From Natrarchaeobius chitinivorans (lineage in GTDB: Archaea > Halobacteriota > Halobacteria > Halobacteriales > Natrialbaceae), in assembly GCF_003841505.1 (NCBI RefSeq), contig NZ_REGA01000009.1, positions 62,001-126,000 of the forward strand: 64,000 bases of DNA, given 5' to 3'. Positions 11,190 through 62,832 of the stretch are shown here, piece after piece. Both the position numbers and the translations under genes were made by a program. Position 1 is the stretch's first letter; every line of letters starts with the position of its first letter. The notes under the pieces are model-generated. The model saw only the letters and a program-made list of their open reading frames with translations, did no database searches and was not told the DNA's origin.

Positions 11190-11275
11190 TCATACGGAGT
11201 GCTGTAACTGTTTACCGGCGCACCCGCGACCAGGGCGGCGGGTGCGCCGGTAAGGACGTACAGCAAACCGTATCA
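11190..11275. repeat. Family C element, copy 1
   Basis: An 86-bp near-palindrome with ends TCATACGG and CCGTATCA and a 14-bp perfect central stem (ACCGGCGCACCCGC at 11214-11227 with its complement at 11238-11251). Unlike most copies, its CCGTATCA end does not abut a convincing gene. A weak 77-codon minus-strand frame does end on this TGA. Confidence 0.85.
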
Positions 11276-18789: not shown

Positions 18790-18875
18790 TCATACGGTTT
18801 ACTGTACGTCATTGCCGGCGCACCCGCGGCCCGGGCGGCGGGTGTGCCGGTACACAGTTACAGTAATCCGTATCA
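18790..18875 (-). repeat. Family C element, copy 2
   Basis: An 86-bp near-palindrome from TCATACGG to CCGTATCA. The terminal TCA (18873-18875) is the TGA stop codon of the minus-strand gene 18873-19316. The interior GC-rich stem (GCCGGCGCACCCGC with GCGGGTGTGCCGGT) resembles copy 1. Confidence 0.88.
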
Positions 18876-21184: not shown

Positions 21185-21268
21185 TCATACGGTCTGCTAT
21201 GAGTCTTTACCGGTTGATCGCCCACCGTTCTGCGATCGACCGGCAATCAGTCATAGCAAACCGTATCA
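21185..21268 (-). repeat. Family C element, copy 3
   Basis: An 84-bp element from TCATACGG to CCGTATCA. TCA at 21266-21268 is the TGA stop of hisS. This copy is the closest match to the interrupted copy at 61345-61530 and defines its ancestral sequence. Confidence 0.9.
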
Positions 21269-37284: not shown

Positions 37285-37370
37285 TCATACGGTTTCCTGT
37301 CCGTCAGTTCCGGCACAACCGCGATCCGAGCGGCGGGTGCGCCAGTACATCGGTACAGGAATCCGACTCA
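37285..37370. repeat. Family C element, copy 4
   Basis: An 86-bp element starting TCATACGG, with a diverged right end (CCGACTCA). It shares the GCGGCGGGTGCGCC core of copies 1 and 2. Here neither end supplies a stop codon: the pitA TAG precedes the left end by 3 bases. Confidence 0.8.
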
Positions 37371-47208: not shown

Positions 47209-47287
47209 TACGGATTGCCGTCACTGTGTACCTGAGACCGCGGGACAGCACCCGGTATTCGGTACTGACTGCCAGTAAACCGTATGA
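47206..47287 (+). repeat. Family C element, copy 6
   Basis: An 82-bp element in plus orientation, TGATACGGATTGCCGTCACT... to ...CCGTATGA. Its first TGA is the stop codon of the membrane protein gene. It lies 48 bp before the cupin gene. Confidence 0.85.
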
Positions 47288-59694: not shown

Positions 59695-61347
59695 TTGTTA
59701 CTCGCGTACGCCCGCGACCGCCGTCGGTTTCTCCTGTTCGGCCGGCCCCGTTCGGTCGATAACGCCACGCACCGTCACCGGGCGGAGGTGTTACTCGAGT
59801 CGCTGTTGACGCTCGGACCGACGTTCATCAAACTCGGGCAGTTGCTCTCGGCCAGACCGGACGTGTTGCCGCCGGAGTACATCGACACCCTCTCGACGCT
59901 CCAGGACGAGGTGCCGCCGGCCGAGTGGCCGGCGGCGAAACGGGTGCTCGAGGAGGAACTGGGGCCCGTCGACGACCGCTTTGCGGCCTTCGATACCGAT
60001 CCGATCAGCGGCGCGAGCCTCGGCCAGGTGTACCGGGCCCGAATCGCCGAGGACCGCGCGCCGAACGGGACCTCCCTCGAGGATGACGGACCCCGAGACG
60101 TCGCGGTGAAGGTCAGACGACCGAACGTCGAGGAACTGGTCGAGGCCGACCTGCGTGTCATCCACTGGTCGCTGCCGATCTTGCTTTACTTCGTCGACGA
60201 ATCCCGCTCGTTCTCGCTCGAGAACCTGGCGGAGGAGTTCTCGAAGACGATTCGCGAAGAGATGGACTACGTGCGCGAAGCCGAGATGCTGACCGAGATC
60301 CGCTCGAACTTCGCCGACGACGACCGGTTTCTCATTCCCGAAGTCGTCGAGAGCCACTCCGGGCCGCGCGTGCTCACGATGGAGTACATCGAGGGGACGA
60401 AGATAAACGACGTCGAGGAACTCGAGCGACGGGGGATCGACCGGACGCAGGTGGCGGAGAACCTGGAGCGGTCGTACCTCCAGATGATCATCGACGACGG
60501 CGTCTTCCACGCCGACCCTCACCCGGGTAACCTCGCGGTCACCGACGACGGCACGATCGTCTTCTACGACTTCGGGATGTCCGGTCGGGTCGACGAGTTC
60601 GTCCAGGGGAAGATCGTCGAGTTCTACGTCGCGGTCGCAAACCAGGACATCGACGCGATCCTCGACGCCCTGATCGAGATCGGGACGCTCTCGCCCGAAG
60701 CGGATCGGGCCACGATGGCCGAGGTGATGGAGATCGCCATCCAGGACGCCCGCGGCGAGGACGTCGAACAGTACCGGGTCAACCAGATCGTCAGCCAGAT
60801 CGAGGACTCGATCTACGTCTTTCCGTTTCGCCTGCCGAAGAACCTCGCGCTCGTCCTCCGGGTCGCCACCGTCGTCGAGGGAGTCTGTGTCACCCTCGAT
60901 CCGAATTTCGACTTCATCGCGACGGCAACCGACTATCTTACCGAACAGGGCTACCGCGAGGAGTCCATCAGACAGTACCTCTCGGAATCGGGCGAGAACC
61001 TCCGGCGGACGGGCGAGTCGCTGACCCGGATCGCCCCGAAAGCCGAACGTGCCCTCGATCGGCTCGACCGCGACGACCTTTACGTCCGCATCGGCGTCGA
61101 GGACTCGGAGAACGTCTTCGATAAACTCGCAAAGCGGCTGATCTACGGCATGTTGCTCACCATGTCGTTGTTCTCGATGGGGGTCCTCTACGCGCTCGAG
61201 GCTCCGCGGGCGGCGATCGTCGCGGCGGGCTTCTCGCTGGTGGTGACTGTCCTCCTCTACCGAAGCTTCCGGAAGCGCCGGACGACCCGCGTCAAACCAC
61301 AGTTCACCCGGCAGAACCTCAGGCAGCGCCAGCGCGGCGACGACTGA
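59695..61347 (+). CDS. UbiB/ABC1/AarF-type atypical kinase
   Basis: A 550-residue ABC1-family kinase-like ATPase, in other organisms linked to isoprenoid quinone biosynthesis. The KxGQ segment TFIKLGQLLSARPDVLPPEY and then GASLGQVYRARIAEDR, VAVKVRRPNVEELVEADLRV and FHADPHPGNLAVTDDGTIVF (catalytic loop) with FYDFGMSG are intact. Two C-terminal membrane segments follow. The start is unclear: TTG at 59695 is the first standard start, but in-frame coding from 59632 looks conserved (VLVAWQFLPLLLAYARDRRR) with no ATG, GTG or TTG. The TGA stop is part of a family C repeat. Confidence 0.9.
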   Translation: MLLAYARDRRRFLLFGRPRSVDNATHRHRAEVLLESLLTLGPTFIKLGQLLSARPDVLPPEYIDTLSTLQDEVPPAEWPAAKRVLEEELGPVDDRFAAFDTDPISGASLGQVYRARIAEDRAPNGTSLEDDGPRDVAVKVRRPNVEELVEADLRVIHWSLPILLYFVDESRSFSLENLAEEFSKTIREEMDYVREAEMLTEIRSNFADDDRFLIPEVVESHSGPRVLTMEYIEGTKINDVEELERRGIDRTQVAENLERSYLQMIIDDGVFHADPHPGNLAVTDDGTIVFYDFGMSGRVDEFVQGKIVEFYVAVANQDIDAILDALIEIGTLSPEADRATMAEVMEIAIQDARGEDVEQYRVNQIVSQIEDSIYVFPFRLPKNLALVLRVATVVEGVCVTLDPNFDFIATATDYLTEQGYREESIRQYLSESGENLRRTGESLTRIAPKAERALDRLDRDDLYVRIGVEDSENVFDKLAKRLIYGMLLTMSLFSMGVLYALEAPRAAIVAAGFSLVVTVLLYRSFRKRRTTRVKPQFTRQNLRQRQRGDD

Positions 61348-61530
61348 TACGGTTTGCTATGACTTAGGGATTATCGTAGGAGTTCATAGTTTCCCGCTGA
61401 AGAACCGAGACACAGTGTCGAAGGTCCGGTTTCGAGACCTCCGGGAGGCTACGATAATCCCTAACTGATTGCCGGTCGATCGCCCACCGTTCTGCGATCG
61501 ACCGGTAAAGACTCATAGCAGACCGTATGA
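61345..61530 (+). repeat. Family C element, copy 7, interrupted by another MITE
   Basis: The ends are TGATACGG (61345) and CCGTATGA (to 61530). Without the insert at 61365-61463 and its duplicated ACT the element is 84 bp and matches copy 3 in reverse orientation. Its first TGA is the stop codon of the UbiB-type kinase. Confidence 0.9.
61365..61463. mobile_element. 99-bp MITE (family D) inside a family C element
   Basis: Perfect 15-bp terminal inverted repeats TAGGGATTATCGTAG and CTACGATAATCCCTA bound 99 bp. It is flanked by ACT on both sides (61362-61364 and 61464-61466), a 3-bp target duplication. The host repeat is known intact from the copy at 21185-21268. No coding capacity. Confidence 0.92.
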
Positions 61531-61659: not shown

Positions 61660-62742
61660 ATGGAGTACGATCGGATCGCCGACCTGGCGCTCGAGGTCGA
61701 ATCGGTTTCGACCGAACGGACCGCCCGCGAGACCTCGAGTGATTTCACGCGGGTGACGACTCGGATCAGCCTCGTCGGTCCCGGACGCGAATCGGTCGAC
61801 GACCGACCGACGGGGATCGGCGAGGACGTCACCTACGACGCCGACGAACACGACGCGCTGGCGGAGACCGGCCTTCCCGACCTCACCGGCGCGTACGACC
61901 TCGAGTCGTTTTCGGCGCATCTGGACGACCTCGACCTCTTTCCGGCGGGCGAACCCGACCGCGAGGTCTTTCGTAACTACCGCCGGTGGGGCGTCGAGAG
62001 CGCGGCGCTCGACCTCGCGCTCCGGCAGGCGGGAACCGACCTTTCGAGTCGCCTCGAGCGCTCGCTCGAGCCGGTACGATTCGTCGCGAGCACCCGTCTC
62101 GGCGACCCGCCGACGGTCGAGCGCCTCGAGGCGCTTTGCGAGCGCGTACCGGGCCTCGAGTTCAAGCTCGATCCGACGCCGTCCTGGGACGCGGAACTGA
62201 TCGAGGAGATCCGCGAAACCGTCGATCCGTCGGCCGTCCGGATTCTGGACCTCAAGGGCCAGTACGAGGGAACCGACGTCGACGTTCCCGCCGATCCCGA
62301 CCTGTACGAACGCGTCCTCGAGGCGTTTCCCGAGGCGGTCCTCGAGGATCCGGCGCTCACCTCGGCGACCGAACCGCTGTTCGACGATCCGTCGATTCGA
62401 GAGCGGACCTCGTGGGACGCGCCGATCCACGGCCTCGAGGACGTCGAGGCGCTCCCGTGGGAGCCCGGCTGGCTCAATATCAAGCCGTCCCGGTTCGGCT
62501 CGCTCGAGTCGCTACTCGAGACGATCGCTTACTGCGACGAGCGGGGGATTCGCCTCTACGGCGGCGGCCAGTTCGAACTCGACGTCGGCCGCGGCCAGCT
62601 CCAGTTACTCGCCTCGCTTTGCTATCCCGACGGGCCGAACGACGTCGCACCGCGGGGGTACAACGACCCCGACGTCGGGAGCGGGTTGCCGGCGAGCCCG
62701 CTCGAGCCGCCAGCCGACCCCGTCGGTTTCCGGTGGAGATAA
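61660..62742 (+). CDS. Enolase-superfamily-like protein
   Basis: A 360-residue protein with an enolase/mandelate racemase-type arrangement: a first part beginning MEYDRIADLALEVESVSTER, then FKLDPTPSW, ILDLKGQYEGTDVDVPAD, the EDPAL acidic strand and LNIKPSRFGSLESLLETIAY. These could be the Lys/Asp/Glu/Lys set of the barrel active site, but assignment is incomplete and the substrate is unknown. The ATG at 61660 is preferred to one 12 codons upstream. It lies about 130 bp after the interrupted repeat. Confidence 0.7.
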   Translation: MEYDRIADLALEVESVSTERTARETSSDFTRVTTRISLVGPGRESVDDRPTGIGEDVTYDADEHDALAETGLPDLTGAYDLESFSAHLDDLDLFPAGEPDREVFRNYRRWGVESAALDLALRQAGTDLSSRLERSLEPVRFVASTRLGDPPTVERLEALCERVPGLEFKLDPTPSWDAELIEEIRETVDPSAVRILDLKGQYEGTDVDVPADPDLYERVLEAFPEAVLEDPALTSATEPLFDDPSIRERTSWDAPIHGLEDVEALPWEPGWLNIKPSRFGSLESLLETIAYCDERGIRLYGGGQFELDVGRGQLQLLASLCYPDGPNDVAPRGYNDPDVGSGLPASPLEPPADPVGFRWR

Positions 62743-62747
62743 GCGGA

Positions 62748-62832
62748 CGATACGTTCCGCCGTCCGTGATCTGCGGCCCACTCGCGAATCGGTCCCGTCT
62801 GCACTGGTCGATCGGTACAGCAATCCGTATCA
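62748..62832 (-). repeat. Family C element, copy 8
   Basis: An 85-bp element with a diverged left end (CGATACGT) and right end ATCCGTATCA. TCA at 62830-62832 is the TGA stop codon of the minus-strand gene 62830-63396. It starts 6 bp after the stop of the enolase-like gene, so it fills the whole gap between convergent genes. Confidence 0.75.

Follow-up and report, generated by a model that had tools for sequence, protein, structure and literature searches.

Two nested miniature element families in Natrarchaeobius chitinivorans, one of them an abundant palindrome often located at stop codons

The 64,000-nucleotide stretch analysed here (the window; contig NZ_REGA01000009.1 of Natrarchaeobius chitinivorans, positions 62,001 to 126,000 of the forward strand) contains two kinds of non-autonomous DNA elements that belong to related families, one nested within the other; a single type of DDE transposase acting in trans probably mobilised both. 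We assign this reading a probability of about 0.8. The nested MITE at 61345–61530 is real, but it is ordinary as such. More interesting than the nesting is the family to which the outer element belongs, an abundant orphan palindrome that is often anchored exactly at stop codons. A search of the open-licence literature in PubMed Central revealed no description of either family.

Structure of the nested locus

Inspection of the sequence identified a 99-bp inner element at 61365–61463, with perfect 15-bp inverted ends and ACT on both flanks, exactly as the first-pass annotation had it. The inverted end (TIR), TAGGGATTATCGTAG, occupies 61365–61379 on the plus strand and 61449–61463 on the minus strand. 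Both copies are perfect and represent the only exact matches to this sequence in the whole window. The ACT duplication is located at 61362–61364 and 61464–61466. All other features of this locus are given on the plus strand.

The outer element, a member of family C, extends from 61348 to 61527, has the termini TACGG...CCGTA, and is a palindrome of 78 bp once the inner element is removed. Its left part, TACGGTTTGCTATGACT (61348–61364), includes as the final three bases the first ACT of the inner element, while the right part (61467–61527) ends with ...GCAGACCGTA. TGA is present on both sides, at 61345–61347 and 61528–61530, and is the outer element's own 3-bp duplication. The host repeat had been delimited as 61345–61530; a split repeat is indeed located there, but the outermost three bases on each side are the TGA duplication and not part of the element proper. 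Deletion of the 99-mer had been expected to restore a match to the copy at 21185–21268. Excision of the 99-mer together with one ACT yielded a 78-mer, which is identical in 71 of 78 positions to the reverse complement of 21188–21265, the mismatches being mostly in the central ~12 bp, which are inverted between the two copies. Rfam produced no match near the nested locus.

The gene upstream of the nested elements (59695–61347, plus strand) is an ABC1/UbiB-type kinase-like gene with a match to TIGR01982 below the cut-off. Its open reading frame ends at 61345–61347, so that the first copy of the outer duplication is also the stop codon of this gene. The next gene (61660–62742, plus strand) displays a weak o-succinylbenzoate synthase-like match. 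In a genome of the same genus (G001, locus L381), this gene lies near the 3' side of the kinase-like gene, and neither element occurs between the two, which makes this an orthologous empty site. In another genome (G003, locus L382), a different outer-type copy begins at the same stop codon, after an ABC1-type kinase gene. The latter copy is either an independent hit on the site or a diverged old shared insertion.

The proposed order of events at this locus, with the outer insertion before the inner one, is supported by these observations. The outer palindrome inserted at the TGA stop of the kinase-like gene and duplicated this TGA; owing to the duplication, the gene kept a stop codon. Later, the 99-bp element (TAGGG...CCCTA) entered the outer copy, with ACT as the duplicated target. 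Both elements were probably mobilised by one kind of DDE transposase acting in trans, which would cut CWSWG with a 3-bp stagger, as is the case for enzymes of the IS5/PIF-Harbinger type.

The outer palindromic family

Outer elements are near-perfect palindromes of 78–81 bp, which start with TACGG(A/T)TT(A/G)CTGTA. Among 115 copies aligned from 2.1 Mb of the genome, 72 are exactly 80 bp long, and 85 are flanked by an exact 3-bp duplication. The latter is always TNA: TCA (57 copies), TGA (25), TTA (2), and TAA (1). The genome-wide search for outer ends, with at most one mismatch, returned 663 matches versus 0 and 1 for a reversed control pattern. On this basis, the genome carries about 330 copies, which account for 0.6% of its length. 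With TIRs, a fixed length, and a 3-bp duplication, the family displays the characteristics of MITEs.

The uninterrupted 78-bp copy at 21188–21265 (minus strand) is flanked by TCA at 21185–21187 and 21266–21268. Other copies in the window include those of 80 bp with a TCA duplication at 11193–11272, 18793–18872, and 37288–37367, and one of 76 bp with a TGA duplication at 47209–47284; the copies at 18793 and 47209 are positioned at predicted stop codons. Also, a solo outer-type end, TGA followed by TACGGATTGCTGTACCGATC, was found at 62829 of the window (minus strand), with no partner end.

The family was detected in 66 of 101 genomes and in 21 of 29 genera of the Natrialbaceae, and the length of 80 bp is conserved among them. 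Annotated plasmids of Natrinema, Natrialba, Natribaculum, and Halomontanus, the last also belonging to the Natrialbaceae, carry the outer element as well.

Some structural variants were observed. The hairpin tip of the 80-bp copies in the 2.1 Mb can point either way with respect to the asymmetric arms, in a ratio of 36 to 13. Such a flip/flop arrangement suggests that the tip was inverted between the arms or that events mediated by the hairpin took place. Three outer-type ends are arranged in tandem at C19:31826–31880, in steps of 27 bp and with TCA after each, and a similar stack of ends is present at C14:24347–24368.

Location at stop codons

The 2.1 Mb contain 82 outer copies flanked by a TSA duplication. 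Not one of them interrupts a predicted gene, and in 36 the TGA coincides exactly with the stop codon of such a gene. The proportion expected at stop codons is 17% if the null model is weighted by the target preference of the family, that is, over non-coding and stop-codon TSA sites (P 1e-8), and 4.5% if it is not weighted. All of these figures are approximate, because genes were called with a simple codon-usage script, which misses genes.

Several of the affected genes could be named. One is hisS, which ends at the window's copy at 21188 and whose product matches TIGR00442 over the cut-off; TCA at 21266–21268 is the stop codon of this gene on the minus strand. Judged by eye, other genes ended by outer copies resemble surE, mptA, and rad50. 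Similar positions were revealed in annotated records. The outer element begins one base past the stop codon of the archease gene in Natrinema thermotolerans, and right after the stop codons of genes for a FAD-dependent oxidoreductase in Natrialba magadii and a PHP-domain protein in Halomontanus. In Natronosalvus, the stop codon of a chemotaxis gene is directly adjoined by a copy of the inner family. Three other outer matches and one other inner match in annotated records do not abut an annotated stop.

A 3-bp stagger across CTGA(G) would recreate the stop codon and would thereby make insertions silent for the protein, which is the mechanism we favour. The placement may reflect a preference of the enzyme, selection sparing such sites, or a useful hairpin.

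The last of these options can be taken further. Rather than being a transposable element in the first place, the outer palindrome could be a functional, REP-like hairpin of gene 3' ends that controls translation or the ends of transcripts and that selection has spread and maintained at stops, with the 99-mer as the only true MITE. We consider this doubtful, although the excess at predicted TGA stops (36 of 82 copies, against 17% expected) speaks in its favour. The outer elements also fold as strong hairpins (z of −6 to −8), and pairing in the stem exceeds that in column-shuffled controls, which leave in the relatedness among copies. For Escherichia coli, an influence on translation is reported for REPs that lie within 15 nt of a stop (PMC12306157). 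The clean duplications of 85 of the 115 copies, the 80-bp length maintained across genera, and the empty orthologous site are, however, signs of transposition, and 46 of the 82 copies are located away from predicted stops. The two readings of the palindrome, as a functional hairpin and as a transposable element, are compatible with one another.

The inner 99-bp family

The first-pass annotation had recommended a search for TAGGGATTATCGTAG-type ends in this genome and in related haloarchaea, and the family proved to be present in both. The genome of N. chitinivorans (4.57 Mb, 48 contigs) contains 17 dispersed copies, 12 of which measure 98–99 bp and are 90–98% identical to the window copy over 95–99 bp. 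A scan for exact ends was performed against 84,980 genomes. Among the matches listed, the family occurs in Natrialba, Natronorubrum, Natronosalvus, Salinadaptatus, Halalkalirubrum, Haloferax larsenii, Halobium, and several haloarchaeal MAGs, and the length of the element across the Halobacteria is nearly always about 97–101 bp. The exact inner ends are present in 18 of 101 genomes of the Natrialbaceae.

Of 69 copies with both ends collected from haloarchaea, 63 are 98–101 bp long and 49 possess an exact 3-bp flanking duplication: TGA (25), TCA (18), ACT (4), GCT (1), and AGT (1). The insertions fall on a symmetric target, mostly C-TSA-G; a smaller class, C-AST-G, includes the insertion in the window. 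A few copies, all from one MAG, display a 2-bp TA duplication at CTAG. The 17 genomic copies and the exact duplications in 49 of the 69 haloarchaeal ones rule out a chance origin of the inner element, as the 663 end matches do for the outer one. Being short, non-coding, multicopy and dispersed, with TIRs and a duplication of fixed length, this family also has the make-up of MITEs.

Link between the two families

The two families share a 3-bp duplication and a symmetric C-W-S-W-G target, and their ends (TAGGGATTATCGTAG in the inner and TACGGATTACTGTAA in the outer family), as read from the sequences, agree at 11 of 15 positions. Taken together, these features suggest that one kind of transposase probably serves both families. 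Movement by different, unrelated transposases, with CWSWG targets shared by chance or owing to the tolerance of such sites for insertions, appears unlikely to us. The ends do differ at four of the 15 positions, and so do the ranges, the outer family being found mainly in the Natrialbaceae and the inner one throughout the Halobacteria. This is opposed by the equal length of the duplication, the symmetric target, the terminal TA and GG common to both families, and the identity of the ends at the remaining positions.

Nesting is recurrent. Five of the 17 inner copies have an outer copy as their host: the one in the window and those at C14:72855, C16:31234, C1:11128, and C14:78652. The expected number is 0.1 if the outer family is taken as 0.6% of the genome (P about 4e-8) and 0.5 if it is taken as 2.9% of the insertion-tolerating, non-coding DNA (P about 1e-4). 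The preference of the inner element for outer copies can be attributed to CWSWG-like motifs within the outer sequence, on which the hits fall. The reverse situation, an outer-type element inside an element of the 99-bp family, was identified in Salinadaptatus (L151) and, as a 183-bp element, in genome G023. Both families include near-identical, recent copies. As nesting occurs in both directions, the locus in the window orders two insertions but does not date the two families, and the earlier suggestion that it gives their relative age had to be abandoned.

One more outer copy, at C6:86782–86952, appears to be interrupted by ~80 bp of additional sequence close to the corresponding internal position; this is possibly a case of an outer element within another outer element.

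Search for a transposase

IS5 subgroups IS1031 and ISL2 and PIF-Harbinger elements generate 3-bp TNA or ANT duplications. The transposase of the families described here is probably of the IS5/PIF-Harbinger type, as judged from the duplication. The likeness lies in this TNA/ANT duplication only, since transposases of PF13340 and PF13359, which were chosen as IS5/PIF-type with a TNA duplication, each scored over the cut-off in 0 of 61 related genomes, a difference from IS1031/ISL2 and PIF-Harbinger systems. The size of the duplication had been put forward as an aid to identification of the transposase. With 3 bp it narrows the class, but it has led to no IS with these ends.

A full-length IS with the same ends was sought in this genome and its relatives, and none was found. 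Inner ends with up to three mismatches formed no IS-sized pair genome-wide or in related loci of other genomes. Outer ends revealed no autonomous element in 2.1 of the 4.57 Mb. A genome-wide scan for outer ends lacking the T at position 21 typical of the MITEs, which sees a part of the possible cases, also gave no IS-sized pair. None of the 18 DDE_Tnp_1 loci in the genome is bounded by TASGG ends accompanied by the corresponding 3-bp duplication. In IMG/VR, outer ends gave 14 matches, which is about the chance expectation.

Several candidates were inspected and rejected. The lone end at C1:331580 (L068) belongs to a truncated copy, with no transposase among the open reading frames. At C3:246175, an end is located beside an IS5 transposase gene (L246), but this IS has, by eye, its own unrelated ends, TGCTGAAT..., and the TIR-like stretch merely abuts an outer copy. 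Among TASGG pairs spaced 300–3000 bp apart in the 2.1 Mb, those formed by family ends are separate MITEs or MITE ends, and the rest look like chance pairs.

Comparison with known elements

MITE-like repeats of archaea commonly have no autonomous partner. Among archaeal MITEs, 19 orphan 'MITE-like' repeats and, in Methanosarcina acetivorans, an IS5-linked 140-bp MITE with 3-bp duplications have been described (Kamoun et al., 2013; PMC3852290). Both families reported here resemble archaeal MITEs in being short, non-coding, and present in high copy number, with TIRs and a short duplication, often with no partner, and the IS5-linked example has direct repeats of 3 bp as well. They differ in size and duplication from the haloarchaeal cases in that survey, none of which is an 80-bp palindrome with ~330 copies located at stop codons.

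REP and REPIN sequences are short palindromes found by the hundreds next to genes, often near stops, and are hot spots for other mobile elements (PMC1525189; PMC12306157). The outer family is similar in its abundance, its position beside genes, and its role as a target of other mobile elements; it is different in its clear 3-bp duplication and its location exactly at the stop codon.

The small mobile repeat SMR-A of Haloquadratum walsbyi is about 110 bp long, has TIRs and is reported to generate no target duplication, and the enzyme that mobilises it is not known (Dyall-Smith et al., 2011; PMC3119063). The elements described here resemble SMR-A in size, prominent TIRs, and insertion into palindromic mobile elements, but they generate 3-bp duplications at CWSWG. 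On account of the similar size, the TIRs, the attack on palindromes, and the missing transposase, the inner elements might be taken for repeats of this kind. The 3-bp duplication carried by 49 of the 69 inner copies makes us reject this identity as highly improbable.

A separate 110-bp element with inverted ends GAGTGRTC is located at C12:26802–26911, exactly in the middle of an outer palindrome. It has no evident duplication there and resembles SMR-A. The second copy of this element (C31:5428–5537; 98% identical) adjoins a DDE transposase gene at C31:5015–5434.

That the 99-bp segment was original to the repeat and has been lost from other copies can be dismissed: no point in its support was found, the 99-mer is missing from outer copies at other sites, it occurs alone elsewhere with its own duplications, and nesting is also reversed. 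The observation named beforehand as a refutation of the nesting, a 99-mer in all copies of the repeat in relatives, was not made; the orthologous site in G001 contains neither element.

Taken as families of transposable elements probably served by one kind of enzyme, these repeats represent two linked families with one target rule and no known mover, the outer one with ~330 copies in this genome and a distribution through most of an archaeal family. It is possible, but we propose it only tentatively, that the outer elements form a large orphan family with an unrecognised transposase, that the CWSWG target and 3-bp stagger of this enzyme turn TGA stops into preferred and self-restoring targets, and that roughly a hundred or more genes per genome carry a stop-adjacent hairpin affecting transcript ends or translation. 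If so, the hairpin-bearing genes would include hisS and other housekeeping genes. By entering exactly at TGA, with a codon-sized duplication that recreates the stop, an element would have a simple, low-cost way to spread through a gene-dense genome, and hairpins would also be placed at many gene ends.
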